DNA of 64,000 bases from Gyrodactylus bullatarudis (taxonomy: Eukaryota; Platyhelminthes; Monogenea; Gyrodactylidea; Gyrodactylidae). Both the position numbers and the translations under genes were made by a program. The notes under the pieces are model-generated. The model was given only the letters and a program-made list of their open reading frames with translations, made no database searches and was not told the DNA's origin. This document shows, one piece after another, positions 1-60,572 of the stretch; within the stretch, counting starts at the first letter, position 1; the number at the start of each line of letters is the position of its first letter. The DNA is taken from assembly GCA_012064415.1 (NCBI GenBank), contig SSNU01000201.1, positions 1 to 64,000 of the forward strand, in the 5' to 3' direction.

Positions 1-864
1 CAATTCACGCAAGGAGTTATTAAACGATTCGGCAATGTTGGATGTAAGTTGGCCATAACGACAAGCTGGAAAAGAGTGATTTGCCCAATGTTTTGCGGGT
101 ATATTTACGAGATAATCGAAAATTTCATGATTTAGAGATTTTATTTCTACCATCGCACTCCAGAAATTTGATTCTTCTTCTTGCATTGCAGCTTTCCATA
201 AAAGTCTTTTTATATTTTTTCGGAATTTGGTTTTAATCTTTTTGCCAATATGGTAAAGACAGTAGGAATGATTAGATTGTGTAAGAATCTCTGAGACTGA
301 TTTCATTAGACCTTTCTCTCTGTCTGAAATAATTATCAAGTTAATTTTGTCTTCAAGTTAAAGAGACGCATTAAGATTTCCGATAAAAATGGACCAGTAT
401 TTATAATTCTCCATAGGAGCGAAGGCAATAGCTATTGGATAAATTTCATTGTTACCATCAATACCTGTTGCAACTAAGAGAATATAATTGCATGATTGTT
501 TCATATGGCATCCATCTAGAGCGATCAACGGAGCAGAATTCTGGAATGCATTTATTGAATGGCCAAGAGAAAGATAAACATATTCGAGCTCTCTATTCGG
601 GGAAATTTTAAGGTCGACAAAGGTTCCCAAATTATGCAATAAATTCCAATTTAGAAAATCTTCTAATTTTCCGAATGAATTAATAATACCTGTTTCTTTT
701 GACTTTTTAAGAGTATTTATTGTCCTCCAGTTTTGATGATACGTCGTTGAAAGACCATGTTGGGTTTTCATAATATTGTTTGCATCATTTGGACTGAGCT
801 TTTCAATTTGATTGACTAACGGCTCAAGAATACTTTTTCTTGCAGAGCTTTTAGGGATGTTCAA
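1..864 (-). pseudogene. MULE (Mutator-like) transposase fragment, frameshifted
   Basis: The minus strand encodes the central part of a Mutator-superfamily DDE transposase. In the reading frame 864-358 the first catalytic Asp lies in ALDGCHMKQ, followed by the typical block LLVATGIDGNNEIYPIA and ENYKYWSIFIGNL. The frame then breaks at about 357 and continues in another frame with the second Asp block (IIISDREKGLMKSV), a YCLYHIGKKIK segment and SNIAESFNNSLREL running off the window edge. The last matches the usual NxAESxN region that ends the MULE domain. The product would nick and rejoin DNA at terminal inverted repeats, but the frameshift makes it non-functional as read. A second relative of the family lies at 38.9-39.2 kb. 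The family call is firm. The 3' part of the gene lies outside the window. Confidence 0.85.
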
Positions 865-1006
865 ATCTAAGAAAATAAATTATGATAATCAAACGGATGA
901 AACTACTCAAAAAAATACTTACATGAACAAAATTATATTCCCCATTAAATTAACGGCATAAATTATAATTAACGTTAAAATAACCTCTGTGAGATCCTAG
1001 GAATTG

Positions 1007-2039: not shown

Positions 2040-3204
2040 CACTGAAGAAATTAAAGCCAGATTCATAAACTAAAAGAAAATAATGTCCCTCTGGCTGAAA
2101 CATTGGAGTTTATCTGTAAAATATCCAAAGATATTGAAGGATTTCCGATTCCACCTATACTGTTAAAGCGGTTGTTATTTTTGTGTTGCAAAGACGTTGC
2201 TCTATCTTTTGATAAAAAATTATACATCCAAACGGAGGGTGTAGCCATGGGTACACCATTAGGTGCTTTGCTTGCAGAAAATTTCATGGGAAAACTAGAA
2301 TCAGGATCACTAGCACCCCTTATCAGCAAAGCTAAAATCTACAGAAGATATGTTGACTTCTTCATGATCGTAGACAAGAACTTAGAACTAAACTGCCTTT
2401 TAGAAGCTGCAATTACTGCCCATGAAAGTCTAAAATTCACCATGGAAGTAGAAGCAATAAACCAAATGCCGTTCTTAGAGCTCTTGTTATACAAGAAAAT
2501 GGTCAAATACAAAGAAAAATCTTCAAAAAATCAACTTTTACATGTAAACTCCTAAATTTTAACTCGTTCTCTCAAAGTCTACAAAAAAGGGATTGGTGAA
2601 ATCACTATTCTCGAGACTAGAAAAACTAGTATCATCAGATTGCTTAGAGGACGAAAAAATCAAACTCAAGTAAGTGTTCACTGAAAACAATTATCCAGCA
2701 GACTTTGTGGAAAATGCTTTGAAATGGGACGATCCAAAGGATGAAAACCTAGAGTCGAAAGAGAAAATTAACATTCAAAAGAGAGAGGTCTTGGAAAACA
2801 CAACCAAAAGCAAAATAAAACAATGGTGTGAGTCAACATTTCCCATATGTGAGCCAAGATTTCATTTCAAATCGAAGAGAATGTTCACAAACAAAACGAA
2901 AGACAGACCAAACCCATTATCAGAATCATATGTGGTATACAAATTCAAATGCCTTTGTAATGCAGAGTACATTGGCCATATAACCAGAAGGCTTGAAGAA
3001 AGAGTCTCTGAACACTTGTACACAGGCTCGACAGCCATAAGGCAACACGTTAGAGAATGCGAAGAAAAGGTTTCTCATGAAAATTTTGAAATCATTTACA
3101 GACAAACAGGAATCAGCATCGCAGCTCTCAAAACAGCCGAGGCAATACTCATAGAGAAGGAACAACCCAATCTATGTCTCCAAAAAAATTCATTCAGCCT
3201 CTAG
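2040..3204 (+). pseudogene. Penelope-like retroelement (RT + GIY-YIG) remnant
   Basis: Plus-strand remnant of a Penelope-like element. The first open segment (2103-2555) carries RT motifs typical of the group: FPIPPILLKRLLFLC, TEGVAMGTPLGALLAE and the catalytic box RRYVDFFMIV. In that box the second catalytic Asp of YxDD has become Phe. After a frame break at 2556-2673, the segment 2674-3204 encodes the RT C-terminus and a GIY-YIG endonuclease with the CLC cysteine motif (YVVYKFKCLCNAEYIGH), RRLEERVSEHL, and the closing LKTAEAILIEKEQP. Such proteins copy RNA into DNA and nick the target with the GIY-YIG domain. The frameshift and the missing Asp make this copy dead. The same family occurs at 8.2-10.5 and 19.0-19.4 kb. 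Confidence 0.9.
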
Positions 3205-4011: not shown

Positions 4012-4050
4012 AAGACTGAAGAGTATGCCCGAAATAGAGCTCAATCTCTT
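4012..4050 (+). ncRNA. Hammerhead ribozyme candidate A (PLE type)
   Basis: Core CTGAAGA (4016-4022), 8-nt segment GTATGCCC (4023-4030), GAAA (4031-4034), then a minimal helix III (AU...AU) closing a loop with the palindrome GAGCTC. The cleavage site would follow C4046. Helix I pairs AAGA (4012-4015) with UCUU (4047-4050). TGGCA just upstream (about 4003) is complementary to the TGCC in the 8-nt loop. Self-cleaving hammerheads are known from Penelope-like elements. Activity here is inferred from structure. Confidence 0.75.
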
Positions 4051-8277: not shown

Positions 8278-8317
8278 GAGGAATAAGCGCTTTATTTCAG
8301 GCATACTCATCAGCCTC
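8278..8317 (-). ncRNA. Hammerhead ribozyme candidate B, left arm
   Basis: Mirror copy of the motif at 10392-10431, on the minus strand: GAGG, CTGATGA, GTATGCCT, GAAA, AU...AU helix III with AAGCGCTT palindrome, then CCUC pairing back with GAGG. Confidence 0.75.
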
Positions 8318-8697: not shown

Positions 8698-9615
8698 TCA
8701 TTGGCTAAAATACTTCGTGATTTTGTTGGTTTGTATTATTGTGTCCGAGTTTCGGTTTCTTTTTCTTGTTTCCTCTGGTTGACTGCTAGTTTCAACGACT
8801 GCTCTATTTCCGTTTCTCTTATTTGGCCAATTTAGACCTAACGTCTTGACAAGTTTCTTTTGCTTGCATAAGATTGGGTTCTCTCTTTTAATAAAGAAAG
8901 CTTCAGCAGTTTTTAATGTGTTGACATTCCTCCCATTTTGTCTATAGAGAATATAAAAGTTTGCTGGGGAGGCTTTTTTGTCACATACCTTGAGATGTTC
9001 CCTCACTGCTGTGTTTCCAGTATAGAGATGTTTATCTATTCTATCCTCGAGTCTCCTCGTAGTGTGACCAATGTACTCTGCTTTACATGGACACTGGAAT
9101 TTGTACACAACATAAGAAGACTTATTATAAACCAAGAGGTCCTTAGATTTATTCGTAAACTTTTTATTAGTCATGAAAAGATATCTGATTTTCATTCTTG
9201 GAAATGTTGTTTGGAATAACTCGTTTACTTTTTGTTTCAATATTGTTCCATGGTTATCTCCTTTGAAAGGTACTATCAAATAGACCGGTTGAAATCCTTC
9301 CTCTTCAGTTCTGTTTGTATCGTTTGATTCCATGTGACTCAGAATAAACTGCCTAGGGTAATTATTGCTCATGAAAATTCTAATGAGTTTCTTTTTCTCA
9401 TCTTCCCACATATGTTCCGATGTGAGTTTCTTGGTTCTGGAAAACAGAGACTTCACAAGCCCTTTTTTGTAGTTAATAGGTGCAAAAGAATTGTAATTCA
9501 TAAGTTTACCAGTAAAAGTCTTTTTTCTGTGAATTTTTCTACTTATTTCACCATTATTCCTTCTGTTCATATAAATCTCCAAAAAAGGTAACCCGTTTTC
9601 CAATTCCTTCTCCAT
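8698..9615 (-). CDS. Penelope-like element ORF: RT thumb + GIY-YIG endonuclease
   Basis: An open frame of 305 codons on the minus strand, 5'-truncated. It starts within the RT C-terminal region (LENGLPFLEIYMNRRNNGEI; TFTGKLMNYNSFAP). The frame appears to continue upstream of the first ATG (STFLLMEKELENG), so this ATG is not a true start. Residues about 165-260 form the GIY-YIG nuclease: SSYVVYKFQCPCKAEYIGH with the CPC pair, TTRRLEDRIDKHL, and LKTAEAFFIKRENP. The tail is Lys/Arg/Asn rich and ends TNKITKYFSQ. The nuclease would nick the target DNA for target-primed reverse transcription. The RT palm with catalytic Asps is absent, so this copy cannot transpose alone, although this part of the frame is intact. 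Confidence 0.85.
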   Translation of the reverse strand: MEKELENGLPFLEIYMNRRNNGEISRKIHRKKTFTGKLMNYNSFAPINYKKGLVKSLFSRTKKLTSEHMWEDEKKKLIRIFMSNNYPRQFILSHMESNDTNRTEEEGFQPVYLIVPFKGDNHGTILKQKVNELFQTTFPRMKIRYLFMTNKKFTNKSKDLLVYNKSSYVVYKFQCPCKAEYIGHTTRRLEDRIDKHLYTGNTAVREHLKVCDKKASPANFYILYRQNGRNVNTLKTAEAFFIKRENPILCKQKKLVKTLGLNWPNKRNGNRAVVETSSQPEETRKRNRNSDTIIQTNKITKYFSQ

Positions 9616-10334
9616 TAATAAGAAAGTAGAATTCCCTTTCTCTCAAAAACGGCATAAAGTGGCATTGGAGAGGTTGAAAAGAAGAAGTGACACAATTCTC
9701 ACGAAATTGGACATCTCAAGGTATGTGACAAAAAAGCCTCCCCAGCAAACTTTTATATTCTCTATAGACAAAATGGGAGGAATGTCAACACATTAAAAAC
9801 TGCTGAAGCTTTCTTTATTAAAAGAGAGAACCCAATCTTATGCAAGCAAAAGAAACTTGTCAAGACGTTAGGTCTAAATTGGCCAAATAAGAGAAACGGA
9901 AATAGAGCAGTCGTTGAAACTAGCAGTCAACCAGAGGAAACAAGAAAAAGAAACCGAAACTCGGACACAATAATACAAACCAACAAAATCACGAAGTATT
10001 TTAGCCAATGATCATTATTCCCAAAAGATATCAAAAAATCTACCTATTACGTTTATTAACCTTGTCTGTCAAACTTTCTTTTAAGTTATATAATCATGTT
10101 AAATTGAAACTATATCGCCTTTATCATAGAACATACAATATCATACATATATTATTTCTCAATGTTACAACTCTGTTAATGTGTCTTAATAAGAAAATGT
10201 ATCATATATCAAAGTCATATATCATATATGTAATCAGAATGTACCCCACCCTAGGGTGGGAAATATCAACCATCACAAACCCTACCTGATTGAGAATGTG
10301 ATAAATTTTTAGATGTACCCCAACACAACGAGAG

Positions 10335-10390
10335 AGCCAATCAGATTAACTTATATTTTTCTTTGTATTTTACTATATATTTGGCATGTA
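10335..10390 (+). promoter_or_regulatory. CCAAT/TATA-like block ahead of PLE hammerhead
   Basis: CCAAT (10337-10341) and a TATATATT box (10375-10383) lie 10-55 bp upstream of the hammerhead in the right arm. The mirror image lies in the left arm. Similar ACCAATC plus TATATT order precedes hammerhead A. A pseudo-LTR promoter is inferred. Confidence 0.4.
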
Positions 10391-10391
10391 A

Positions 10392-10431
10392 GAGGCTGAT
10401 GAGTATGCCTGAAATAAAGCGCTTATTCCTC
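10392..10431 (+). ncRNA. Hammerhead ribozyme candidate B, right arm
   Basis: GAGG (10392-10395), CTGATGA (10396-10402), GTATGCCT (10403-10410), GAAA (10411-10414), then AU, a loop containing AAGCGCTT, AU and U10427 as the cleavage-site base, and CCUC (10428-10431) which pairs with GAGG. TTGGCAT just upstream is complementary to the ATGCC in the 8-nt loop. Closing pair of the 8-nt segment is G-U here, G-C in other versions. Confidence 0.8.
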
Positions 10432-14489: not shown

Positions 14490-16159
14490 GATCTAACATT
14501 TCCAGTGCTATGAATTCCACGTGATAACAAAGACTTTTGTAAAAGAATACTAGTGAAAAATTTATCAAAAAATACGATATGATTCTTATGTTCAGGCAAA
14601 TTTTGGCAGACTTTTAGAACATAATCTCCTGATGACAAACCACACGATTTTTCAAGATACCATCATAAATAAAATAATTATGCATGAAACCATCATCGCC
14701 GTCTTTAGAAAAAAAATTTAATGCTCCAATTCGCTTGTTTACATTGTTTTAATCGTGACCTTCCTTTAAATGGAATCATCTGATCATCAAACAGATTGAG
14801 TTTGAGATTGCTGAGTATATGAATTACAATTTTTTCGAAATAACTCTGAGAATTCTCGTATTTTATATAATAGATCAGATAAATTAATTTGATTATTATC
14901 CGAGAAGTGAAGGTTTTGTTGCCAGTCATAAAAACGGTTTCGCGAGATCAAATTTGATATTGACCCAATTCTTGTTTCATTAGACCAGTACATCTAGGTA
15001 ATTTCATAATTCCCATTTTTAGTAAAACGCCAATATATATTTTTGCTTAGTTAATGCTGCCTCCAAGTGTACGACAATTTTGAGTGGCATACATGTTAGA
15101 TTGGTAAGCTATCAGGGAAATGATTTCAGCAGAAAAATTATGAATAAGTAATTCACGTAGTCTTTCAAACACGTCCGAAAATCCACTTATATTCATAATT
15201 TAGGAAATTGAAAGAAGATATATTAAAACCAAACGTACATTTCTTAAAACATCATCAGTGGTAATTCTTCGAAAATGATATTAGTTAAGGATTCATTAAT
15301 AATATTTTATAAATCATGAAAGAAATAGTAAAGTCAAAGAAAATAAGAATAAAATGGAAGCTGAAAAAACACCAAAACTCTACAATAAATAGCAACAGTG
15401 GAGAGAAAAAATTGATAAAAGTAATCCAGAGTTGTTTTTTATGACATTTTAAAGTTGGTCACTGCAGTAAAATCCAATTCATATTTTGGGTCATTCCCAG
15501 TATCTCTAATATCTATTTTGGGAAGTTAAGCAGATTAAGAAATTAATGTAATCCCAATTTCGATTTCAAGAAAGCATGTAACTATTGGGAACCAAATAGG
15601 CTTCAACAAAGATGAGCAAATTTGAATCAGGATCATCGGATTATGGTTCTAAATCGTCATTTATATTATGGATAGCTTTGATATCATTTTTTAATTCGTT
15701 ATCTGAATCCTTTGCATTTGGAATTAAGGTTGAAGAATAAATTTTCCCATTTCTTGTTTTTCTCATATTACATTCACTTTCGATACCGTTTAGTCCCGAT
15801 AGGTCGTATACGACCTCGAGTTAAATCGAATATCAAGTCTTTAGAACCAATCATCTTTAAGTATAAATAGGAGATATATGCATTCGAACTATTGTAAAAT
15901 TTAATGAAAAAACCTTCACATTCTATGACAAGTATTAACGAAGATAATTAGCCCAGTAACTAAGCTAAAATATTGACGTCTCAGGAACAAAATTCAAGAC
16001 ACGTAAAAGGTGCTAATTAGCCCTCAAAATGTGCAAATTACCTATCATTAGATAGATAATGAACTGTAGTTACAGTATAAAAAATTTATTTCATTAAAAC
16101 TAATTAAACCTAGTAATTATTCAATAAAATTAAGGCGAGGTCGTATACAACCGAGAGGG
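14490..16159 (-). pseudogene. piggyBac-type element remnant
   Basis: The minus strand carries a decayed piggyBac transposase: acidic N-terminus (MRKTRNGKIYSSTLIPNAKD, about 15.77 kb), then MYWSNETRIGSISNLISRNR and FYDWQQNLHFSDNNQINLSD. The catalytic-Asp block follows, now DDQMIPFKGRSRLKQC (family form IDEQMIPFKGR), and finally VCQNLPEHKNHIVFFDKFFT, the DNxFTS region. Stops and frameshifts are frequent. The 5' end is well defined: CCCTCTCGGTTGTATACGAC directly abuts TTAA at 16160-16163, the canonical piggyBac target. A perfect palindrome GGTCGTATACGACC lies internally near 15.81 kb and a near copy lies in the terminus. I could not find the other end. Confidence 0.8.
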
Positions 16160-18720: not shown

Positions 18721-18761
18721 CACAAATAAAGATATCTATTTCGGGCATACTCATCAGTGTG
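18721..18761 (-). ncRNA. Hammerhead ribozyme candidate C (PLE type)
   Basis: Minus strand: CACA (18761-18758), CTGATGA (18757-18751), GTATGCCC, GAAA, AU...AU helix III with the AGATATCT palindrome, U as cleavage-site base, then UGUG (18724-18721) pairing with CACA. TTGCAT upstream is complementary to the ATGC of the loop. It lies about 215 bp downstream of a PLE endonuclease C-terminus on the same strand. Confidence 0.78.
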
Positions 18762-18977: not shown

Positions 18978-19235
18978 TTAAGATTTGATCATTGTGTTGC
19001 TACGAAGAACTTGGTAATTTGTTGGTTCGTTTCTGTCTCTTCCCGTCTTCTTTTCATTGGAGGGGGTTGTGATCCTGCTGGTTTTTTCTCCCTCGGTTTT
19101 GGTAGGCTCATTGGTTTCACATGATTCTTTTGTACACATAGATTTGGCTTTTTCGTTAATAAGGTAAGCTTCTGCTGCTTTCAAAATGTAACCGTTTTTA
19201 TCTGATGGTTTGTAGATAATTTCAAAGTTTTGGGG
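18978..19235 (-). pseudogene. Penelope-like endonuclease C-terminal fragment
   Basis: Minus strand encodes NFEIIYKPSDKNGYILKAAE, then AYLINEKAKSMC and a polar tail (TGRDRNEPTNYQVLRSNT) to a stop at 18978. This is the end of the GIY-YIG domain of Penelope-like elements (compare LKTAEAILIEKEQP at 3.1 kb). It is truncated upstream at about 19235, where an oppositely oriented PLE fragment begins. Confidence 0.75.
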
Positions 19236-19258
19236 GAAAACTCATTGTAAATACTAAT

Positions 19259-24428: not shown

Positions 24429-25150
24429 TTAGTAAACAATCAAGATCTCAAAAGTGTGAAACACAGATAAATCAACATCTTCCGTAGATTCACTAGCAGA
24501 TAAAGATAACCTTGAAAAGCCATCCGCCACAACACTACAGTCTCCTTTGATATGATAAATTTCATAATCATAACTCATCATGATAATTTTCCAACGTGCA
24601 ATTCGCTCTGACGCCACCTTACCCAAATTTTTAGGATTGAAAATAAATTGTAGGGATCTATGGTCATCATGCTCCGATTTCGAAGATGCACCAATAATAA
24701 CATCATCTTGGTAAACTTTGACGCCCTTTATGTGACTAAGTATTTTATCCATAATCTCCTGAAATTTCAAAGGAGCAGCAGACACACCAAATGGCAGAGT
24801 TCTATAAGCATAACAGCCTTTATGAGTGACAATAGTGGTAAGTTTCTGACTTTCATCGTCTAGTTTTACTTGCAAATAGGCATCTTTTAAATCTAATACA
24901 GAATATATTTGACTTGAACCCAAATCAAAGAGAACCTCTGAAATAGTGGGAATAGCATAAGAACCTCTGTCAATTATTTTATTGACAGTGACAGAATAAT
25001 CACCACATAAACGAATCGGTCTTGAACTTCCGGCTTTCTTTACAACAACAACAACAGGAGCTGCCATAATAGGATTCGATACTGGATAGATCACACCATT
25101 TTCTTGAAGATATTTCAATTCATCCTCAATTAAGCTCTTGACTGAAAATC
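24429..25150 (-). pseudogene. Reverse transcriptase fused to RNase H tail by deletion
   Basis: RT starts LKYLQENGVIYPVSNPIMAA and has RLCGDYSVTVN, the first catalytic Asp in YSVLDLKDAYLQVKLDDESQ, LPFGVSAAPLKFQEIMDKIL and the intact YxDD box KVYQDDVIIGASS. Directly after SKSEHDD the frame jumps to HRSLQFIFNPKNLGKVASER, the last third of RNase H. The RT thumb and most of RNase H are therefore missing in an in-frame deletion, near 24.67 kb. DNA synthesis by this protein is unlikely. Confidence 0.88.
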
Positions 25151-25800
25151 ACACAGATCTTGCAGCAAACACCATACCAGAACAACTCAAGTCTGATCTT
25201 GTCCTTAAAGATGCCAAGACATTTCCATTATTCAAAGTAAAGTTATTCACACAATGAGAAGGAAAATTCACAATATCCAACTCTAGCAGGACATCCATTC
25301 CCAAAATGGGAGTTACAGCTACATCAACTATGTACAATCTTGTATATACTGACCTGTCATGAACGAATAATTTAACATTTTCCACAAATCCGATTACATG
25401 AACTTGACCACCGCCAAAACTACTGACTGAACAATTTTTAGAAGTTAATCTGCTTTTAAGATATTTTGGTAATAATGAATAAGACATTATGGTGCATGTT
25501 GAGCCGGTATCAATCAAAAATCTGACTTTAGTTCCTTCGAGATATACATCAGAGTACCTCAAACTATCATTTTTGATAAAGTTTATATAGGGAGTAACAA
25601 CTTTATTTATGTATTCAATAACATTTTCACTTAAAACTTCATTAACCTTTTGATTGATCTTTTGACTTGCCTTTGATCTCTTTGGCCGTTTACACATCCT
25701 CTCAACATGGCCTTTGATACCACAATTTTGACATATCGAATCTCTCAGCTTACACTCATTTTTGTAATGTTGTCCACCACAAGAAAAAACACCTGATAGA
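25149..25800 (-). pseudogene. Zinc knuckle and aspartic protease part of pol
   Basis: Encodes CCHC knuckles (CGGQHYKNEC, CQNCGIKGHVERMC), then the retroviral-type aspartic protease with the active site VRFLIDTGSTCTIMS and ILGMDVLLELDI near its end. The protease cuts the polyprotein during particle maturation. The frame closes at 25149, before RT, because the protease-RT linker is deleted. Confidence 0.85.
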
Positions 25801-26301
25801 TTGAACCTGATTGACAATTGAGTGACTACCCGCCGAAAAAATCTCTGCTCTTTTCAAAACGTTAGAGATGTCAGTCTTTGGATCAGCTCTAAGCTTTCGC
25901 CTAACATCCTCATTGCTGATTGCTTTCATGAAATAGACAACTGTAAAAAAATCAGCATCCTTGAGATTGGCACATCTGATCAACCTCGAAACCTTCAGAA
26001 AAAGACTCTCCAAAGACATTGAATCTTGGTTCAAATCTTCAAGCTGAGAAATATAAAGCATTGGATTGTCATTTCTATTATAATAATCTTTCACTTTATC
26101 AAAAACCTCGTCAAAAGTAAAACCAACAAGTTTGCCGTTGACGATATCCCTCATTCTCATATAACTCTCATGATCAACAACTTCACAAAGATATTTGATC
26201 TTCTTAGAATCAGCAATACCACTACATCTAACCGAAATTCTCTCGAAAAAAACCTCCACACCAACAGGGTCCGTAGGAAGACCTTCTTCCCTCGACGCCA
26301 T
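25756..26301 (-). CDS. Gag of the short-LTR retrotransposon
   Basis: Frame of 181 codons starting MASREEGLPTDPVGVEVFFE. It contains a helical capsid-like region (RMRDIVNGKLVGFTFDEVFD; SLESLFLKVSRLIRCANLKD; FTVVYFMKAISNEDVRRKLR) similar to retrotransposon gag proteins that package element RNA. The frame is lost exactly in the first zinc knuckle, where a run of six A's (25784-25789, plus strand) has one base too many. With five A's the product would continue CF-x-C-GGQHYKNEC. This could be an assembly homopolymer error or a real frameshift. Confidence 0.75.
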   Translation of the reverse strand: MASREEGLPTDPVGVEVFFERISVRCSGIADSKKIKYLCEVVDHESYMRMRDIVNGKLVGFTFDEVFDKVKDYYNRNDNPMLYISQLEDLNQDSMSLESLFLKVSRLIRCANLKDADFFTVVYFMKAISNEDVRRKLRADPKTDISNVLKRAEIFSAGSHSIVNQVQSIRCFFLWWTTLQK

Positions 26302-28501: not shown

Positions 28502-29956
28502 TAGTGTTCTGCTATTCGAAACGTAAAACTAGTTTTATGATATATGAGATGTTCCTGAATAGCATATAACTAAGTGATATAATATATCATGATATATTTC
28601 TAGATTATGTCATGATATATTCTCATTTATTTACGTATGCATATCAGTTTATGATATATTTTTCCTATTAAACGATTCAAATTTTTATATCATTCTTATC
28701 TATATCTCTTTCAGGCCCGATTCTATTTAATGACTCAAAAAATTGAATATGAATACATATTTGGAATCAGAATGAGTTATAGATTTATAATAAAACCTTG
28801 AATCATCTGAAAACCTTTTCATAAAAAAGTTTTTTTTTCACACTTTTCAATACATTTCCCCTATCTACTTTCAAGCGACGGCCCCAAGTGATTTTAAGAT
28901 TTTTTTAAAAAATGAGGTTAATTTAGTCAATTCTAATAAAATACCTTTTGCCTCAACTTTTTTCAGGAAGATTAATTAACAAATCATCAGAAGGTTTTCA
29001 ATCATCTGACTGATGTTCAACGCTGTTTCTCTTTCTTCTATGTACTGAAGTCTAATGAGAAAATTGTTGAGATTGAAATCTGTATCAATGTAATGAATAG
29101 TCAACGATAGGAAATTATCTTTGCTTATTGACCTCCAACCATCTGAAGTCAAGCAGCAAAGATCACATTCATTCAAGTCGTTGGAAAGTTTTAATCTCTA
29201 GAAAGTTATCGAAGTGATTTCTTACCAACTTTTTCTCATGAACATCATATAATTCTTCTAGCTTATGCCTTGAAAAGGTTACAGCATTTTTGATTGTGTA
29301 ATTTGGGAGAAACTTTTCAAATAAATTTAACCAAAATTTTTCTTCGACCAGAGTGAATGGATGATCACCAAAAATGATTGCTTTCAGCAATGCCATATCT
29401 CGGACTTCAAAATTATTTGTTGATTTTTGGAAATGTTTTCCTGCAAAATTGACTTGTACTGAGTATAGTGCTTGTATTTCAAGTGCTGAATCAAAGGACT
29501 TGTGGATGTTGAGTTCATATTTATGGTTTTTTGGCAAATCTTGCATATAGCTGAATATTAAATATGACGTTCTTACCTTTATTTTCAATATCTAGAAAGT
29601 GTTTCCAATATGGACTTCTTTTTGTATTAGGCATCAAAGAGTACAGATATTGCCTATTTGATAAATTAACTTGATGGTATTTACTGTTTATCTGAATGAG
29701 TTGTAAATTACAACTTGTAATGAATCACAGAATGAGCTTTAATCTGATTGGTTGTTTTATATCATATATCATGATATATTACAAATCCCTCATGACTTAT
29801 TTTTCGAGTATGTCATGCTATGTAATTAACATTAAAGAAATAATGATAATTATATCATGAGATACAACTTTTTATTCATTTAATGTACACTAATGATATG
29901 GTATAAAACATATCATATCATATGTCATTCTTCACGTTTCGAATAGCAGATCCCTA
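28502..29956 (-). mobile_element. hAT element nested in gypsy RT (1455 bp)
   Basis: Ends TAGTGTTCTGCTATTCGAAA and (reverse complement of the right end) TAGGGATCTGCTATTCGAAA. It is flanked by the 8-bp duplication CTCTCTAC at 28494-28501 and 29957-29964. Removing the element and one duplicate restores the gypsy RT frame as GYSLPTTE. It carries a truncated transposase on the minus strand. A 230-bp internal stretch (about 28715-28975) recurs in a CARS intron at 37983-38225. Confidence 0.92.
28976..29600 (-). pseudogene. hAT transposase, truncated
   Basis: Two minus-strand frames: 29588-29169 (VRDMALLKAIIFGDHPFTLV, EEKFWLNLFEKFLPNYTIKN, AVTFSRHKLEELYD) and 29176-28976 (CDLCCLTSDGWRSISKDNFL, SLTIHYIDTDFNLNNFLIRL). 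They match the hAT core up to the first catalytic Asp block (LTTDGWTS..N..FI.LT.HFID). The second Asp, the CxxH motif and the dimerisation C-terminus are absent, so the element is non-autonomous. Confidence 0.85.
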
Positions 29957-30971
29957 CTCTCTACCCACTACGGAATCTATCTTCGCTCTTATAGTAAAGG
30001 CTATCAAGTTCACCTCCCTTGATTTATCTGCGGCCTTTCTTCAGGTAGAATTAGATGAGGAGTCACAAAAACTGCTTGTCATTAACATTCCCTGGGGATT
30101 ACTCAAGAGCAAACGGCTAACCTACGGAGTAAAACCTGCGCCGAAAATCTTTCAAAGAATCATTGAATCCATTATTGACGCTACACCAGGCATGCTGAAT
30201 TACATACTAATCTGGGGATCTACCTCCGAGGAACTCTGGCAGAGAACAACGGAGGCGCTCGAGAAACTCACGGCTGCGGGTTTCAAACTGAATCTAGAAA
30301 AATGTCAATTTGATAAAGATGTTATTCAGTTTTTGGGATGCCAAGTATCAGCTGAAGGGAGAAAACCGGACCCAGAGAAAGTCACAGATTTAGCCAATCT
30401 ATCCCCACCTAGATCTCAGGCGGAATTACAATCATTCCTGGGATTAGTAAATTACTTCTGCCCATTCATCGAAAACCTACACTTGCCTAAACAACATTTC
30501 CGCCCGTTACTCAGAGAAAAAGCCCAAATTGTATGGTCTCCAGAATGCCAAAAGAGTTTTGAAGAAATAAAACAGAGCTTGGTCAACTGTGCTAGTCTCA
30601 CCTTCTTCGATCCAAATAAAAAGTCAGTAGTAGCTGCTGATGCTTCCCCTTTCGGTATTGGCGCAACTCTAATGCAAGAAGAAGATGGAAAACTTCTACC
30701 TGTCATGTTTCTGTCTAAAAGCCTAACTAAGACTCAACAGAACTACCCTCAGATCGAAAAAGAGGGTCTTGCCATAGTTTATGCAGTCACTAAGTTCCGA
30801 CAATATCTTCTGGGACGGCACTTTACCTTACAGACTGATCATAAACCCTTAGTTAACATCTTCAATCCTTCAGAAGGCATAAAATCTACGTCAGCAATGC
30901 GATTACAACGGTGGGCGCTGACCCTAAACGAGTTTGATTACGATATCAATTATGTCAAAACAGCCGATTTT

Positions 30972-31696
30972 NNNNNNNNNNNNNNNNNNNNNNNNNNNNN
31001 NNNNNNNNNNNNNNNNNNNNNNNNNNNNNNNNNNNNNNNNNNNNNNNNNNNNNNNNNNNNNNNNNNNNNNNNNNNNNNNNNNNNNNNNNNNNNNNNNNNN
31101 NNNNNNNNNNNNNNNNNNNNNNNNNNNNNNNNNNNNNNNNNNNNNNNNNNNNNNNNNNNNNNNNNNNNNNNNNNNNNNNNNNNNNNNNNNNNNNNNNNNN
31201 NNNNNNNNNNNNNNNNNNNNNNNNNNNNNNNNNNNNNNNNNNNNNNNNNNNNNNNNNNNNNNNNNNNNNNNNNNNNNNNNNNNNNNNNNNNNNNNNNNNN
31301 NNNNNNNNNNNNNNNNNNNNNNNNNNNNNNNNNNNNNNNNNNNNNNNNNNNNNNNNNNNNNNNNNNNNNNNNNNNNNNNNNNNNNNNNNNNNNNNNNNNN
31401 NNNNNNNNNNNNNNNNNNNNNNNNNNNNNNNNNNNNNNNNNNNNNNNNNNNNNNNNNNNNNNNNNNNNNNNNNNNNNNNNNNNNNNNNNNNNNNNNNNNN
31501 NNNNNNNNNNNNNNNNNNNNNNNNNNNNNNNNNNNNNNNNNNNNNNNNNNNNNNNNNNNNNNNNNNNNNNNNNNNNNNNNNNNNNNNNNNNNNNNNNNNN
31601 NNNNNNNNNNNNNNNNNNNNNNNNNNNNNNNNNNNNNNNNNNNNNNNNNNNNNNNNNNNNNNNNNNNNNNNNNNNNNNNNNNNNNNNNNNNNNNNN
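30972..31696. other. Assembly gap (725 N)
   Basis: Run of N inside the gypsy copy 2 pol, between the RNase H end (NYVKTADF) and the integrase tail. Open frames drawn through it on either strand are meaningless. Confidence 1.
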
Positions 31697-31937
31697 AATT
31701 ACCGTCCGACACTTGAACCATGTAAAAAAAAGACTGTCCTCCATTCTCACTCACCATAGAAATTCATTATCAGACGAGAACTCTCCTTCGGAAACGACTA
31801 CTCTCACCGATGCCTCCCTGGACGTCTCACCTGAGCACGCTGCCGCTGAGAGGCCTCGAAGTATTCCACCTGAACATATTGGCCGAGAACACCTCAGACG
31901 CAAGGCTCCCCTTCCTTTACGCTATCGAGAGGGAGGG

Positions 31938-32100
31938 TGTTGAGGAGTTATATTACCGCCATCGAGTTAAACAATAATCTATGTTTTAAATGATATTATT
32001 ATAATTGTGTTGTTTATTGAAATAGAACCACTTTAGTGTGAATTTGAATATACGAGCACGTGAATTTCTTGTCTCTCTGAATCTTGAGTTATGAGTCGGA
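31938..32100 (+). repeat. LTR of the Ty3/gypsy family (approximate end)
   Basis: A polypurine tract GAGAGGGAGGG (31927-31937) is followed by TGTTGAGGAGTTATATTACC, the expected 3' LTR start. The end is set just before a gag-like ATG at 32101. I found no clean CA end or second LTR to fix it. Confidence 0.6.
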
Positions 32101-39200: not shown

Positions 39201-42200
39201 AAAATTAAAAGCTTATAAATATCTGATTATAATCCATTTCGATTATTTAAGTCCTTTACTACCTCACCTAAATAATAAACAATACTTATAAGTATACTAA
39301 TTAGTAATTGAAAGAATGCAATATCGGTTCTTACACATGTTTGATCCAAACTTTGGTTCCTATAATTCAATTATCTCTATCTCCAGATTCCAACCTCTTT
39401 GGATCCTTAGATATGCCTTTATAATTAAAAATCTTTATCAATTCATCAACCAAAAAAGAAACATGGGTACCGAAATTCACTGATTGTTGCAGAAAACCCT
39501 GTAACTTATTCAATGAATATGACCTTATCTATTCACAATTTCTTTCAAAAAATGAAACACACCAAAAGTTTGAAAGCAAAACAGAAAGCAAAAATACTAA
39601 TTTTGAGCAAAAACATACTAAGTTTGAAAACAGAACTCAAGGAAATACTAAATTTGAAATTACTTTTATATGCACTTACGTAAAAAGACATACTAGATCT
39701 GATTTTTTCAATTTAAAAACATACAAATCCTGAATAACCCCCCTTGGACATACTAGTTTTGCAAATGCCCCTTATCAGAATATACCTAGGATACACCGAA
39801 TTCTCCATATTCACCTGTATGCCAATAGTCCAAAAAAAAGTTCAGTAAAATTATTTGATTTACTTAATAATAATAATAAGATTACAATTTTAAAACTAAT
39901 TTTTTTATTTTGGAACGATAATGGAAGATAGGAGAACGAACGAATAATAAGTGATAAACGTTTTATTTCGCCGGGTCTCTTCAGACTTAACACCGGGCTT
40001 TGATTATATACTATTACATTGCAAATATTTCTGCTCTTCCATTTCTGAGTTCCTTTCTATCCAATGGAAGAGCAGAAATATTTGCAATGTAATAGTATAT
40101 AATCAAAGCCCGGTATTAAGTCTGAAGAGACCCGGCGAAATAAAACGTTTATCACTTATTATTCGTTCGTTCTCCTATCTTCCTTATGTGTGTAGACTCC
40201 AGTAATAATAATTTTTTATGTTCTAACATTGTAATTGGTTCTTATTTTAATTTCGGTTTCTAATTGGAACCCAATTTACCAATACTTCTATTTCTTGAGT
40301 AATGTTGATCAGATTAGTTGCTTTATTGGGAATTTGAATCTTACACAGTAAAAAAGCTTCATCTTTAATTATAATTAAATTATAATTTAAAAATCTTCAT
40401 GCCGTATAATTTTAGATTTATCTACAAAGCCTATGTTCTTATAACGAGTTGATTAAATATTAAACTTGAATATTTTTAAATAACTAGAAATACAATCATA
40501 TGAGAATTTAATAACTTTTCAAATAGGATTTCATTTTCAATGCCAATTACCTGACAAGAATATTGATCAGTAGAAATTCTGAGAATACAAAATCATCCGA
40601 CAGTCAAGTATCCAAAAGATATTATGAGCTGAATAAAAAGCTGCGTACATCAATTCATACAAATCTTTCTGGTGAGCTTGTGTATTTTTATGAATATTTC
40701 ATATTCTATGTCCAGTATTGTTATTATTCTTTTAAAACTATATGTCGCTGATTTAAGCTAGATTCTTTTTTCTCTCTATTTTATTTAAGAAAGCTATAGA
40801 AAACCAGCATATATCAATGTGATAAAATTGATTCATATCAGTATTCGGTAAAATATATTTTAGCTCTTTCATTGGTTCATTTTAGGGAATTTTTTTCTCT
40901 TCTATTTGATCTAATACAACTGATATATGATAGATTTTTATTAGTTCAATTATTTAAAATAGTAACAAAAGTAATTATGAGAATCTGGAATGAATTGAAG
41001 AAGATACATGCATATTTGCGAAAGCTTCATGTTTTTGAAAATTAATAAGTCAATCTGAAATCTGGCTCTTAGAGGGAGGATAGTGTATAATAAAATAGAG
41101 AAACCACTCCCTTGTCTGAGATTGTATCTCGATTGAGTAGTATGAATTTTTTCACTGAAAAGGGATCCTGCAGCTACTATTCCTCTCAGCCATAAAAGAT
41201 GCATATTAGCCATTTGTATCAAATGTTGAGGTAGTTGACATGAAGTTGAGGATTTATCATTTTTATAAGAAACTCAATCAAGAACTCGAGAATAATCGAA
41301 CATGTTTTAAAATCCAGATTTTCAGGCAAACCTTAATAAAAGAATGAAATTTCTTGTTGTTGATTTTAACGTACTTCAGATCACAATTAGTCAGGAGGAT
41401 CAAACATGCTAATAGGATAGAAATCTACCATTATAATTATAATTAATACTTTGGGATCATATAAAATTTTCAACTCCTAAACAATCATACAGGTCAAGAT
41501 ATCAATGTTTCACTTTCAGGAAATTATCGTGACTTCTTGATTATTTTTCTGAAAAAGTTAGATTTAAATTTATTTTATTTTCTAGATTAAAAAGTTTTTT
41601 AATTTTCATAATGAAAATCTAGATTTTGAAAAGTAACTGATCGTTCTTGAGTTCCAGATTAAAATTTAATAAAATCAGGAATTCCTGTCTTCATATCAGC
41701 TATATTTTTACGCATAAATCTTTTCACTCTAAAAATTAATCGTGTTTCATTTTGATAAATATTCAATACTTAAAGAATTACTCTGAAGGAAAATATAAGT
41801 TTTATTCTTCAATCATCACCAGGAATTTCACCAAGAAAGTAGACCAATTTCGAACCAAAGTAACAAACAGAAATTAAGATACAGAAGAACCTATTGATTT
41901 TAATTTTGAATTTTGAAAATCTTAATATTCTGGAGTGAGAAATTATCAGCAATGTTATGCAGATAAATTCTCATTGACTTGGCTACAAAAAATCATTCGT
42001 GCAATAACTAATCTTCCTAGTCATATATGGTCATGATTAAAAATTAATTATTAAATTTTTTAAGCTTTCATAATCAATAGCACTCTCAGTGTAAAATTTG
42101 ATTGATTTTGTGCATAAATTACAGTAACACTAACGACTTTTTTTCTTTTTCCACAGTTGAGAAATGGATTTTTTTGTTATTGAAAAACTACTTGACACTC

Positions 42201-45200
42201 CTTTATTCGTTTGCTTTAAACTATGTACATGTAAGTCCTTGTTCTCACGTATTGTTGTAAGGCTTCAAGTAATCTATGTAGGTTATTTTTTAACTATGTG
42301 CGTTATGGTTCTTGAAAAATATAAATTAAAAATTTGAGGATTCCTAGAAACTTGAAATTTTTAACGATATTTAGTAGTCAAAAGAGAGATTAATTACAGA
42401 AATTTAAGCAATAATTCGTATTCTATCTTCTAAGTGGCCATAAAATAACAACAGACTTAATTCTTTTAGACATAAGTTTTAGAATTTGTTACTGATTTGG
42501 TAGCTCGTTAATGTCACAGTACTTAAATTTCCTTTCATACATATTCTTCACAGTTTCTTTCTTATAAGCTTTTCGAACGTAATATTCAAGTTCACATTTA
42601 AATTTATTTGTACGGTTTTGACGAAATTTTCGAAAGATATTCATGAACTCTGGGAGTTTGTTTAATACAATAGTTCATGTAGAACCACATTGAAATCTTC
42701 TTTATTTGTTGATTTGGCAGCTTTGAGCAGAAGAAAGTTTGAATAATTCATGGGGTAAAAAACTTTGCTTGGCTCTTGAGTCTGGTATTTTGTATTCTTT
42801 CTTCATTAGAGAATAGAATATGATCTCTATAGTATGATGTGCCATGTTTACCTAGGAAGTGTGAAATCATTGTTATTAATGGATGAATCTATGGTATATC
42901 ATAGTATGTTTGTCTATTTCTCAAGTGTAATCTGTCATTTTGCTGAAAATGTTCTCATCTTTGCACTTAGCCCTAGTCAAAATATTCCTATTCGGTCGGG
43001 AAAATATTGCCAACTGGTCTCTAGATGTAGAGCTAATGCACGAAAATTTCAGTTTTTAATTTGTAATTCTTTTCAAAATGTTGAATTAAATCCACTAGTC
43101 TTACTTAAAATTATCCCCATCCCTATATATTAGGTTGCATCATATGTTATGAGATTCCAACTTTGATCAAAAATTACATAATCAAAAATTCGCTTTAGAA
43201 TAACAAATTATACATCAAAATGAAGAAAATTTATTTCTCTTTTTCTTTAAATAAATCTACTTATTCATAATTCACGAAACAATGAGTCTTAATGACATTT
43301 TCGATATCAAAGATATTCGAAAGTTAATCGCATATGAGTTTCTTCAGAAAACTGGACCATCAGAGACTTTCAGGAAACTTGAATCTTGTTTCGGAGATCG
43401 AATAAAACGTGCTACTGTATTTCGTTGGTACTCAAACTTCGTAGAAGGAAAGATTTCAGTGGATGATGAATCAAAATCAGGTCGACCTTCAACCGTTGAT
43501 AACTCTTTGATTATTGAAGCAGTTGAAGAGCAACCATCGTCATCTTCAAGAGCAATTTCTTCTGTTTTGAATGTTAGTCAGTCTTCAGTTCTACGTGCTC
43601 TGAGAGAGGAGAACTTTACAAATTCATTCGACAAATGGGTTCCCCATGACCTCAACGAATCACAAAAAAGGAAAAGAGTTGAAGCCTGTCGAAGACTCTC
43701 TCACAGACTCAGTTATGACAATTTTCTGAAGAATATTGTTACAACAGACGAAAAGTGGATCTATCTTCAGGATCAGAGTCGAAAAAGGTCTTGGAAACGA
43801 GTTGGGGAGAAAGCAACTCAACCCTCTCCAAACAGGTTCTCGAAGAAAGTTATGCTCACAGTTTTCTGGACAAGAAAAGGAGTAATCCACTATGAGCTTA
43901 TGGATTATGGTCAGACTGTCACTTCTCAAAGATATCTAGACTCATTAAGGCAGATGGTTGCCAAATTGAAGGATAAATTCCCAAGATTTGGAAGGATTTC
44001 ATTCCAACAAGATAACGCCCGACCTCATCTGGGAAGAGATGTCAAAAATTTTTTTCAAGATGAGAATATCGATGTCATAGAACATCCTCCTTATAGTCCT
44101 GACTTAGCCCCGTCAGATTATCATCTTTTCAGGTCGATGCAACACTTTTTAAAGGGGAAAAAATTCCTCAACAAAGGAGAAGTCGAAAATGGCCTTATCA
44201 ACTTTTTTGATTCAAAAAGTCAAGAGTTTTACGCTGATGGGATTGATCAGCTTCCTATTCGTTGGCAGAAATGTATTAATTCTGCTGGAGAATATTTTGA
44301 TACCTGATTTTTCTCTTTTTTATGCAGATTTTTGAATATATTTTTTTATCTCTAAAGTCTCATTTCTTTTGACGCAACCTAATATTTATCCATTAAATTA
44401 AGGAAAAGCCTCATGAAGAATTATTATCCTCACCAAAATCCATCTTTAATTATTTTTTATCTCCAAAAACTGGAAATATTGTATTTAATCAAGCCAGGTT
44501 ACCATAGAAATTTCTATAACTATCCAAATGGAATATACCCTTTTTCAATCAATCTTTTTGTCAGAGATATATAATTTTTTCTTATTTTTTTCTGCTTATC
44601 AAGTTTTACTACTGTATTGAATGTAAAAATTGAAATTGAAATATTTCAAGGGTCTTCAATTTCTGTATCACTAAATGTTTGATTGGTTAAATAATTTAGA
44701 AAACAAAAGAATCTTTTTAACTAAATCTAAAAATTCTACTATTACAGTAGTAAAGAAATATATTTAGACATATAAATAGACATACTTTATTTCTCACTTG
44801 GGAGTTCTCGTCTTGATTGTTTTCATTTTATTCAAAAATGATGGATTGAATTAATTTGAAGGACTATAAATTTATTAATATCCTGATACGACTTTAAAAA
44901 AAGGAGCTATAGGTATTCTAATTATTGTTTTGAATCTCTAATTTCCTTCTGATACTCCATGAAAATATATTTGGGCATCTATTGATCAATGATCAGTGAT
45001 CATACTATGGTATTTTAAGCTGAATATCCCAAAAACTAATCTTGGCCATCATCTTGTTGAAGAACGCACGAGTATTTGCCAAGTATCTTGTCAGAAGTGT
45101 CATCTTCTCTTTTGACTTCATTGCAATTTTGAATAATTTTTTGTTTATCGTTTAAATCGTTAGGATCAGAAAATTTGAAAAGGTTCATTCTTTTTCTAAT

Positions 45201-57009: not shown

Positions 57010-58340
57010 TAAATGCATGGACCAATAGAGTCGAGGAAAGCTCATGGGGAAACTTACAAGTTATTTTTCATCATGAATTAGCAGCAGATCAATTTAATAG
57101 AACACAATGATTAATTTTCAATTTTAAATAGACAGACATATAGACCTTATTTTTCTCTATATTCTGATATAATTTTTTTTCTTAAATTACGCCAAACAAA
57201 AAACTTGTTTGTTTTACATGATGTAGTTTTAAAAAAAGAACACCATCAGAAAGCTTATGGAAAATTAATTCACCTCACAAATTTTCAATGTTCTAATCAT
57301 CATGCTAAAAATTATATAGAGTTTTGAAAATGTTTTGGATTTAGAAATTAAAAATTCAATCTCAAAATCTCACTCTAAAAAATATTCATGATTCATTCTT
57401 TCACAATGTGTAGTGTAAACTTTAGTATTGGAAGTGACGCCTCTCCCCCACCTATACGTTGTCATGCATTAGGTGTAGAAAGGGAAAATTTATGATACAC
57501 ACAATCACACAATATGGTATGGGGTCCTCTCATTCAGATCTCATCCACTCTTTCATGTATTTGGAAGGGAAAGAAATGAGTTACCGATGTTCACCCTACC
57601 ATATTTCAGTATCAGGAATACACAGTATATTTTAAAGTCTATTCTATATTCGAGAGTGTTCGATCAACAATATATTTGTTTGTGAATCGTCAAGAATTTA
57701 TCCGACAGCAACTATACAGATGTACCCTCATGTTCCCTCGAATCATTGGTGTTTTATTTTCAAAGAAATTGGACAAAGATCATCGAGTGCCCAGTATTTC
57801 TCTGTCTGATTTAGTTCCTAGATTTCCCATTAGAGTTACAGATATTATAGACTATTTACTTAGTTACAATTTGTCATCGAATGAGATTTCAATCAATCAG
57901 ACACAGGAACGAATTTTTTAAGTTCTAGTTAACATAAGTGTAAAGTAGAACTTATGAATTGTTCAATAAATTTCATTTCATTTCAAGTGTCAATTTGAAA
58001 ATTTTGAAGAATTGGCGCGATCATATTTTGGTAGATTGGATCCGAAAAGTCCACTTTCCAATTTACGAGAATTTTTGCTATAGATTTCTACGATTTTTCA
58101 AAGTAAAAGTGAGTTCTAACAACTTTCATACTCATCTGATATATTAATTTATTTTTAACTCCAAAAATTAGTCCACTACTCCCTACATGCAAGTACCTGA
58201 AAGGTTTCAACTTATCACACTTTACAATGATGGTGTGGATCCCAAATTCCTATCTGATGCCTTCAACTGTTCACTTAGTAAGTTTATGTCACCAAAACTC
58301 TTACAATTTAACGAATTCGTAATGTTTTCTTATTTTTAGC
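57010..58340. other. Non-coding or decayed upstream part of the pogo/Tigger copy
   Basis: Short frames at 57676-57921 and about 57985-58110 (CQFENFEELARSYFGRLDPK) may be decayed upstream exons of the following transposase. No HTH domain could be assigned. Confidence 0.35.
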
Positions 58341-58342
58341 CG

Positions 58343-59099
58343 TGTGGTGACAAGCTGGATGCACCACTAGACAAGATCAATGAATTTCGTCAAAATTCGG
58401 ATACAATAATGGAAGGGTATTTGCCTAAACAATGTTGGAATTTTGATGAAGCCGGGTGGTATGTTTACAATTACTATTCAAGAGTCATTGCAAAGAAGTG
58501 TTCGAAAGTTTTTGATAGGAAGAAATCTAAAGTTCGTTTGACACTCTGCGTAGCTGTTAGTGCAACTGGCGAAAAGAAAAAGCTTTGGATTATCGGTAAA
58601 ACCAAGAAACCTCGTTGTTTCAAAGACAGACCAGATATTTTAAGAAAAATTAAATATTCCAGCAACAAGTCATCGTGGATGACGAAAGAAGATTTCAAAA
58701 AGTATCTCATGGCTTGGGATCGCACTCTTGGCAGAAATAGAAGATTAGTCGACAGAAAAATTCTTCTGTTCGTGGATCAATGCAGCGCTCATTTTAAACA
58801 TTGTAAAGAAGACCTGCAACAATCTTTGAGAAATATCAAGGTATGTATTAAACGGATTTCTGTTTTTTCTTTCCACTAAATTTTTTTCTATAGATAGTTT
58901 TTCTGCCTGAAAATTCAACCTCAGTTCTGCAACCAATCGATGCAGGAATTATCCGAAAGTTTAAAGCTAGCTATAACAAGAAGTTACAAGAGTTAAGATC
59001 TGGAAGAGGCATGTATTTAAACAATTTGGCAAGCATTATGACTTTAGCAGATTGTATCGATATTGCTGTCAACATTTGGGATTCAATTGGAATTGTAAT
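58343..59099 (+). CDS. pogo/Tigger-type DDE transposase (partial, spliced)
   Basis: Begins after an acceptor (ttatttttag, about 58340) with CGDKLDAPLDKINEFRQNSD, TIMEGYLPKQCWNFDEAGWYV (first Asp). Then come KVRLTLCVAVSATGEKKKLW, IIGKTKKPRCFKD, SSWMTKEDFKKYLMAWDRTL and KILLFVDQCSAHFKHCKEDL (second Asp). A 53-bp intron (about 58841-58893) leads to IVFLPENSTSVLQPIDAGII (third Asp) and RKFKASYNKKLQELR, to a stop at 59099. This is the DDE_1 superfamily that also gave rise to CENP-B and Jerky. All three Asps are intact, but no N-terminal HTH or terminal repeats were found. It is either a decaying transposon or, less likely, a host-adopted gene. Confidence 0.75.
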
Positions 59100-60410: not shown

Positions 60411-60572
60411 AATATTAACAAAAGAGTTATATTTTATAGAGATATGCAGTACATTTCGCCAGGTAATTGTAAGAATTTTTATTAAATATTGAACCAGTAA
60501 TTGAGACTGACGAGACCTGGCGAAATGTACAATGTACATTTCTCTATAAAATATAATTCTTTTGTTAATATT
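60411..60572. mobile_element. Palindromic element with hammerhead (truncated left arm)
   Basis: The outer arms 60411-60464 and 60515-60572 are inverted repeats (TTAACAAAAGAGTTATATTT and AAATATAATTCTTTTGTTAA, then TTTCGCCAGGT and ACCTGGCGAAA). The right arm holds a full hammerhead. The left arm lost the inner part of its copy. Related in plan to 39923-40183. Confidence 0.7.
60503..60544 (+). ncRNA. Hammerhead ribozyme candidate E
   Basis: GAGA (60503-60506), CTGACGA (60507-60513), GACCTGGC (60514-60521), GAAA (60522-60525), a 6-bp helix III (AUGUAC/GUACAU, AAU loop), U60540 at the cleavage site, and UCUC (60541-60544) pairing with GAGA. CCAG at about 60493 can pair with CTGG of the 8-nt loop. 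Confidence 0.82.

Follow-up and report, generated by a model that had tools for sequence, protein, structure and literature searches.

Hammerhead sites with an eight-nucleotide segment

The first 64,000 nucleotides of contig SSNU01000201.1 from the Gyrodactylus bullatarudis assembly GCA_012064415.1 (positions 1-64,000, forward strand; this whole 64-kb stretch is called the window) contain hammerhead-like sites in which the segment expected to hold helix II is exactly eight nucleotides long. Judging from the sequences, the sites are probably type I hammerheads in the pseudo-long-terminal-repeat (pLTR)/5' leader of several related Penelope-like element (PLE) families, with a pseudoknot between two strands, P1 and P1', in helix II's place.

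A first-pass annotation of the window had described seven sites sharing CTGANGA, eight nucleotides and GAAA, with helix I kept paired in five versions by compensatory changes and with the loop complementary to an upstream segment in every version. All seven sites were found with this layout, and both the compensatory changes and the complementarities hold in the window sequence. As the inverted pairs 8278/10392 and 39948/40117 each share one ribozyme sequence, the seven sites amount to five versions of the ribozyme. They belong to class A, defined by G-N6-Y in the eight-nucleotide segment, and within it to the subfamilies A1 (GTATGCCY, covering three of the five versions) and A2. The main site, at 10392, was delimited from the sequence and a pairing analysis.

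4012..4050, + strand: class A1 hammerhead, P1 pairing GGCA:TGCC
8278..8317, - strand: class A1 hammerhead with the ribozyme sequence of 10392 in opposite orientation, GGCAT:ATGCC
10392..10431, + strand: class A1 hammerhead, main site
10383..10387, + strand: P1 of the main site (GGCAT), partner of P1' (ATGCC) at 10405-10409
10392-10395, + strand: helix I 5' strand of the main site
10396-10402, + strand: CTGATGA
10403-10410, + strand: eight-nucleotide segment
10411-10414, + strand: GAAA
10415-10427, + strand: helix III/palindrome region, with U16.1 (10426) and H17 (10427)
10428-10431, + strand: helix I 3' strand, with predicted cleavage after 10427
18721..18761, - strand: class A1 hammerhead, P1 pairing GCAT:ATGC
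39948..39989, - strand: class A2 hammerhead, CCGG:CCGG
40117..40158, + strand: class A2 hammerhead, inverted partner of 39948, CCGG:CCGG
60503..60544, + strand: class A2 hammerhead, CCAG:CTGG, with a TGTACA helix III that is duplicated in this copy

The core pattern CTGANGA-N8-GAAA has nine matches in the window, where chance would give about 0.13 (from the genome rate of the reversed pattern) or about 0.5 (taking the rate found with spacers of other lengths). Of these matches, 51547 (-) lies inside a long open reading frame (ORF) and looks like a chance match; another, 15258 (-), is a hammerhead of a second class (class B, described below), which the first pass had missed.

An Rfam search of the window gave no match at the gathering threshold, and no hammerhead-model match at E values up to 5. 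Among the sub-threshold matches to microRNA and snoRNA models, the best (40023-40085) spans both arms of the inverted PLE pair 39948/40117, and was read as that inverted repeat and not as a microRNA.

Genome-wide family

A kinase gene of the window finds its closest matches among parasitic flatworms, led by the monogenean Cichlidogyrus casuarinus with 50% identity, which points to a neodermatan as the probable host; the small, AT-rich genome would suit a Gyrodactylus-like monogenean. This genome (77.3 Mb, 471 contigs) was searched with sequence patterns, using the reversed pattern as a control. The core pattern gave 4865 matches (2335 on the + strand and 2530 on the - strand), compared with 156 (78 + 78) for its reverse. 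Spacers of 0-7 nucleotides summed to 4561 matches (control 1335), and spacers of 9-20 nucleotides to 6861 (control 2023); the level at other spacer lengths is about 570 per length, and the eight-nucleotide form stands above it by about 4300 copies. The hammerhead family proposed in the first pass is supported, with thousands of genome copies and an excess at the eight-nucleotide spacer. Other spacer lengths also exceed the control, some of the excess being canonical hammerheads and purine-rich coding-like matches. A form of class A1 with a nine-nucleotide spacer, GTATGCCAC, occurs at 4 of 100 places listed (e.g. C23:232771).

The sample consisted of 98 different core matches, taken from 84 fetched loci and from the window. 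Seven were dropped (L050, which contains an N, and L063, L066, L003, L005, L009 and window 51547, which fit neither class), leaving 91: 63 of class A (24 A1, 38 A2 and one other, a count that still holds a few probable chance sites such as L001 and L057) and 28 of class B (without G-N6-Y, but having U at 16.1 and a near-palindrome that follows GAAA). The hammerhead core (CUGANGA...GAAA...UH, with A15.1-U16.1) is present in these sites, which is not independent evidence because the core pattern served to select them, as did U16.1 for class B. Helix I pairs in 107 of 112 alignment cells of class B, against 94.8 when permuted, and all four of its pairs changed on both sides, in agreement with the earlier claim that it is maintained by compensatory change. 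Helix I is less regular in class A, helix III length being variable there.

A second hammerhead class

Class B sites could be aligned without gaps (28 rows, 25 distinct) in the order P1 (6 nt), 8 nt, CTGATGA, NN, P1' (6 nt), GAAA, 6-nt palindrome, U, H and helix I'. The core is CTGATGA, and once CTGAAGA. The commonest palindromes of the 28 are TGTACA (11), TACGTA (7) and TGCGCA (6), and the P1':P1 versions include CTTTGA:TCAAAG, CTTTTA:TAAAAG, CTTCAA:TTGAAG and CATAAA:TTTATG. With P1 left unconstrained, class B cores carrying the TGTACA palindrome were found at 717 genome sites (control 0). The class B site of the window, identified by its sequence and the class B alignment, is a degraded copy in which five of the six P1 cells pair, three of these by Watson-Crick pairs.

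15228..15272, - strand: class B hammerhead, degraded copy
15272-15267, - strand: P1
15262-15259, - strand: helix I
15258-15252, - strand: CTGATGA
15251-15250, - strand: NN
15249-15244, - strand: P1'
15243-15240, - strand: GAAA
15239-15234, - strand: TGTACG
15233, - strand: U16.1
15232, - strand: H17, with predicted cleavage after it
15231-15228, - strand: helix I'

Covariation of the P1:P1' pairing

Pairing was scored at the best of three registers in class A, and at one fixed register in class B. At that register, 144 of 168 P1 cells of class B pair, against a permutation mean of 129.6 (none of 2000 permutations as high). Register 8 is a clear maximum, registers 7 and 9 giving 89 and 104, and over the whole structure 89.8% of the alignment cells are paired. 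Changes on both sides were found in seven of the 11 class B pairs (three of six in P1, the rest in helix I), where shuffles gave 3.6 (6 of 500 as high), and the covariation score was 0.333, compared with 0.162 in shuffles (0 of 500 as high) and 0.035-0.124 for slid partners. In class A2, 165 of 190 P1 cells pair (149.2 permuted), and in A1 and A2 together 270 of 310 (206.3 permuted); in both cases none of 1000 permutations was as high.

The pairing was then scored in 20 further copies, hand-picked for varied and unusual loops with their upstream sequence unseen, among 100 listed of the 717 TGTACA-form sites. Where P1 was predicted, 107 of 120 cells were paired, against a mean of 87.0 (0 of 2000 as high), with TTTATG in all six CATAAA copies and TTGAAG in four of five CTTCAA copies; these two pairings were already present in the first sample, so that the copies are new but the versions not all new. 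Two patterns with one free position on each side were also searched genome-wide, and each tests a single pair, because the remaining P1 letters are fixed. The class B pattern TNAAAG-N8-CTGATGANN-CTTTNA-GAAA occurs at 546 sites (control 0), and among 100 listed the N:N position is Watson-Crick in 82, G-U in 11 and unpaired in 7. The class A2 pattern CCNGG-N7-CTGANGAGA-CCNGG-CGAAA occurs at 379 sites (control 0), with G-C in 79, A-T in 10, G-T in 5 and no pair in 6 of 100 listed.

These results bear on the possibility that the sites are dead relics, that is, transposon copies with an inactive ribozyme and an inherited, decaying complementarity. P1 or helix I is indeed broken in some copies, and the PLE ORFs of the window are pieces. 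However, the compensatory differences between subfamilies must date from a time when the structure was under selection, and the register is kept across divergent families, which makes the relic explanation unlikely. Many A1 copies also carry a second GGCAT about 8-12 nt past the helix I 3' strand, a possible competitor of P1 for the loop.

Helix II and helix III

By inspection, the eight-nucleotide segment permits at most the 10.1-11.1 pair and no other local stem II, so that a helix II of at least 2 bp is absent. In class A, which is defined by this one possible pair, it is G-C in 47 and G-U in 16 of the 63 sites. The 28 class B copies have U-A (18), A-U (1), A-A (5) or U-U (4), leaving nine without even the standard pair, and position 11.1 also pairs in P1. 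The uniform one-pair helix II of the first-pass annotation is thus found in class A but breaks down in class B, where the occasional absence of the pair had been missed. Helix II seems to consist of one pair in class A and of one contested pair or none in class B, with a predicted pseudoknot helix of 4-6 bp in its place. Class B is a stronger case for a new architecture than class A.

A palindrome of at least 6 nt follows in 72 of the 91 sites, compared with a mean of 19 in mononucleotide shuffles; it is found in 48 of 63 class A sites, which were not selected for it, and in 24 of 28 class B sites, which partly were. The sites therefore have the short palindromic helix III of PLE-associated dimeric hammerheads. 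In the 60503 copy TGTACA is duplicated (60526-60540), and about five pairs could thus close helix III in cis, which might turn a dimeric ribozyme into a monomeric one in a single step.

Association with Penelope-like elements

The link to PLEs drawn in the first pass is supported by the ORF context, namely an RVT_1 domain at one fetched locus (L083), a weak GIY-YIG match and downstream ORF starts. At L083, RVT_1 was detected with an E value of 9.4e-10 in both ORF copies, located between two class B hammerheads. Three ORF remnants lie 5' of class A sites in the window.

2055..3204, + strand: PLE remnant 5' of the 4012 hammerhead, with a reverse transcriptase (RT)-like ORF piece (2055-2555) and a GIY-YIG-like ORF piece (2674-3204)
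8698..9642, - strand: PLE-like ORF piece 5' of the 8278 hammerhead on the same strand, GIY-YIG-like by eye only, with no Pfam or NCBIfam match
18981..19241, - strand: short ORF 5' of the 18721 hammerhead, by eye like the C-terminal end of the 8698-9642 ORF, with no Pfam match

The 2055-2555 piece matches an NCBIfam RT model (Drt2) at E 0.002, far under the cut-off, and has no Pfam match; the 2674-3204 piece matches Pfam GIY-YIG at E 0.0014, under the gathering score. The assignment to PLEs draws on the L083 domain, the weak GIY-YIG match and known PLE motifs, because the Pfam, NCBIfam and homology searches with the window ORFs were weak or empty.

The position of the sites appears to correspond to the pLTR of PLEs. 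In L018 and L011 a class B site follows a PLE ORF at a distance of about 170 nt, and in the window ORF remnants precede three class A sites by about 220-810 nt. In 26 of 38 A2, 11 of 24 A1 and 12 of 28 class B sites, the first downstream ATG to open at least 12 codons falls 57-75 nt after CTGA (counts made with no shuffle control). Many of these ORF starts share N-termini across families (e.g. ILDEVRQYYR and VFENLREYF) and others do not.

A TATA-like box was found within 50 nt before CTGA in 17 of 24 A1 sites (shuffle mean 5.0) and 24 of 38 A2 sites (mean 8.9), starting most often at -22 or -26; among the 28 class B sites just one has it (mean 7.5). CCAAT occurs 40-120 nt before CTGA in 18 of 24 A1, 19 of 38 A2 and 1 of 28 class B sites. 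From the position of the TATA-like box, promoter-started RNAs of class A would begin 3' of P1 and would lack it.

Among 100 listed class B sites, 12 pairs of neighbours lie within 6 kb, nine in the '-+' orientation, one '+-' and two '--'. Eight of the nine '-+' pairs, which point outward (head-to-head), have identical strings; 8278/10392 and 39948/40117 are pairs of this kind in the window. PMC11167929 describes a lizard Poseidon element, PAc, whose reverse transcription begins within the first part of the ORF and which cuts and extends both strands. Priming of this sort would explain the short truncated copies that keep the ribozyme, as well as the outward-pointing neighbours. At 60449-60464 the window also repeats, in reverse-complemented form, the stretch 60515-60530, which comprises loop II, GAAA and helix III sequence of the 60503 ribozyme; this may be a very small inverted copy that is truncated at its 5' side and stops within the ribozyme.

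Proposed fold and function

The proposed RNA would run P1, short linker, helix I strand, CUGANGA, NN, P1', GAAA, palindrome, U-H, the predicted cleavage, helix I', some 30-40 nt and the AUG of the PLE ORF, with P1 pairing to P1' over 4-6 bp. One or two nucleotides can span the deep groove of a 6-bp helix in an H-type pseudoknot, and the order A9-NN-P1'-G12 is wired in the same way, so that the two nucleotides would bridge this groove in a helix of 5-6 bp. P1:P1' would then stack on the core at helix II's usual place, with the short linker running between the distal ends of P1 and helix I and clamping these arms side by side, a task that falls to loop-loop contacts in ordinary hammerheads. Helix III appears too short for good closure in cis, and the palindrome is expected to form a helix III shared between two ribozymes, either of two RNAs or of two copies within a tandem transcript. 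Cleavage a short way 5' of every ORF would probably serve to resolve tandem or read-through PLE transcripts into monomer RNAs whose 5' end is defined.

A bolder, joint proposal is tentative and less likely than not. Helix II of class B would not be formed from its own two strands, the 3' strand pairing instead 5' of helix I in a true H-type pseudoknot fold that retains the hammerhead core, and the pseudoknot of class A would enable activity only in read-through or tandem RNA, sparing promoter-started mRNA. The promoter-sparing part could hold for class A only, since class B lacks the box.

Alternatively, P1:P1' could be a regulatory or inhibitory hairpin, or could act in DNA or in reverse transcription, outside the active fold. 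Alone, it would form a hairpin over a 17-nt loop holding the helix I strand and CUGANGA, possibly before the 3' half is transcribed, and the second downstream GGCAT of many A1 copies could compete with P1. Against this, the register and the eight-nucleotide segment are consistent across families of differing sequence, the geometry of two nucleotides and 6 bp fits an H-type pseudoknot, and shortening of a known hammerhead pseudoknot lowered activity from about 20-fold to more than 100-fold, with compensation restoring it (PMC3088659). A role outside the active fold is accordingly regarded as quite improbable.

Several observations weigh against a PLE-borne hammerhead with a pseudoknot for helix II. 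A1 alone shows no covariation (105 of 120 cells, 103.4 permuted, 178 of 1000 as high), the pseudoknot hardly varying within it; the covarying pseudoknot of the first-pass annotation thus stands between versions (A2, A1 against A2, and class B) but not inside A1. Since copies of a transposon have a common ancestry, shuffles overstate their independence: only 34 of the 100 listed class B strings differ from one another (20 Watson-Crick, 7 G-U and 7 unpaired), and only 24 of the 100 listed for class A2 (16 Watson-Crick, 3 G-U and 5 unpaired). Pairing is poor in some copies, with 0-3 pairs in three and four pairs in five of 29 distinct P1/P1' versions. The absence of helix II is firm only for the five A-A and four U-U copies, because 19 of the 28 class B copies could form a one-pair stem II. 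Support for PLEs from family models is partial, the window ORFs giving weak or no Pfam and NCBIfam matches, and no homologue of one PLE ORF came up in a protein search at E 0.001.

If the P1:P1' pseudoknot reading holds, these sites would point to a hammerhead lineage in which a pseudoknot took over from helix II and dimerisation from helix III, so that only the core and helix I are left, and would set a lower bound on the requirements of the hammerhead fold. Since the window copies escape current Rfam models, animal genomes may hold more ribozymes of this sort than have been counted. They also offer compact, covariation-tested constructs for asking why PLEs keep a ribozyme.

Comparison with known hammerheads

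Minimal type I hammerheads of PLEs were reportedly described by Cervera and De la Pena in 2014 and by Lunse, Weinberg and Breaker in 2017, and share with our sites the type I order, the pLTR location, a weak palindromic helix III and an expected action as dimers. The 2017 abstract is said to report hammerheads with a diminished stem III, and pseudoknots in which loop II pairs with the nucleotides ahead of stem I.

It is plausible that the sites are ordinary PLE hammerheads with the known loop II-stem I pseudoknot, their short stem II being a minor length variant with no new principle, and class A fits this directly. According to PMC3088659, pseudoknots occur in about 40% of hammerheads, stem II often has two pairs, and one pair in an assayed case with a six-pair pseudoknot, and a U10.1-U11.1 mismatch is tolerated; a helix II of at least 2 bp is thus known not to be essential. 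The assayed case, a metagenome hammerhead (Figure 4 there), cleaved fast, with a k_obs above 1.2 per minute, and the paper also describes loss of activity on mutation of the pseudoknot and rescue by compensation. The metagenome hammerhead resembles our sites in its one-pair stem II and in its pseudoknot of the loop I side with nucleotides beside stem II, but it is a single example of type II, whereas here type I is found in thousands of copies, with a class that often lacks the 10.1-11.1 pair. A covarying pairing of loop II with the stem I side, as in that work, was found here except in A1 taken alone. The axolotl retrozyme hammerhead HHR_Amex2 (PMC7229834) is also of type I, works better as a dimer and has a U-U mismatch at the helix II base; it differs in that a helix II stem and loop-loop contacts are still described and in that it belongs to a tandem-repeat retrozyme.

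An ordinary hammerhead is harder to reconcile with class B, given the A-A and U-U copies and the part taken by position 11.1 in the pseudoknot. The PLE hammerheads described in PMC7761336 and PMC6155905 are minimal forms that lost helix III and/or the usual tertiary contacts, unlike those here, in which helix II is reduced and a covarying pseudoknot is present. The lizard PAc hammerhead (PMC11167929) shares the location at the pLTR/ORF junction near the start codon, but its ORF begins inside the ribozyme and its cleavage in the published assay required the PLE protein. A PLE hammerhead having such a helix II was not found in the available parts of the open-licence papers PMC10085705, PMC7761336, PMC11167929, PMC6466107, PMC6155905, PMC7229834, PMC3846280 and PMC3088659, and a search of the open-licence literature for hammerheads with a short or single-pair stem II, or for minizymes, found no paper. 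Because such pseudoknots and one natural one-pair stem II have been published (PMC3088659), classes A and B are regarded as a variant of a known hammerhead kind and not as a new class. What remains of the distinct architecture proposed in the first pass is the reduction of helix II with a predicted pseudoknot in its place; pseudoknots and a one-pair stem II as such were already on record.

The same genome contains canonical hammerheads. The RF00163 model gave at least 57 matches, 29 over the cut-off, and the five that were fetched are canonical. Seven of eight canonical sites were kept for comparison (L081:3765 -, with a doubtful three-pair stem in a long spacer and a 5-nt upstream complement, was dropped); all have a stem II of 4-5 pairs and no loop complement of at least 5 nt within 40 nt upstream. 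This set, which we take to resemble the hammerhead of the Smalpha SINE (named in PMC6155905), has the same core as classes A and B, but differs from them in this longer stem II and in lacking the complement upstream. The comparison shows that one genome holds both solutions, a stem II without a pseudoknot and a predicted pseudoknot almost without a stem II. By eye, canonical hammerheads at L085-L089, L011:4078 -, L014:4491 - and L081:1731 - have a CGCG-type helix III, and some lie beside tRNA B-box-like sequence.

Other mobile-element ORFs in the window

Further ORFs of mobile elements were noted at 24429-25853 (-), 29907-31943 (+), 43255-44307 (+), 58340-58879 (+) and 361-879 (-). They include LTR-retroelement-like (by eye), mariner-like, DDE_1 and weak MULE transposase sequences, and a masked stretch of N lies at about 30955-31698.
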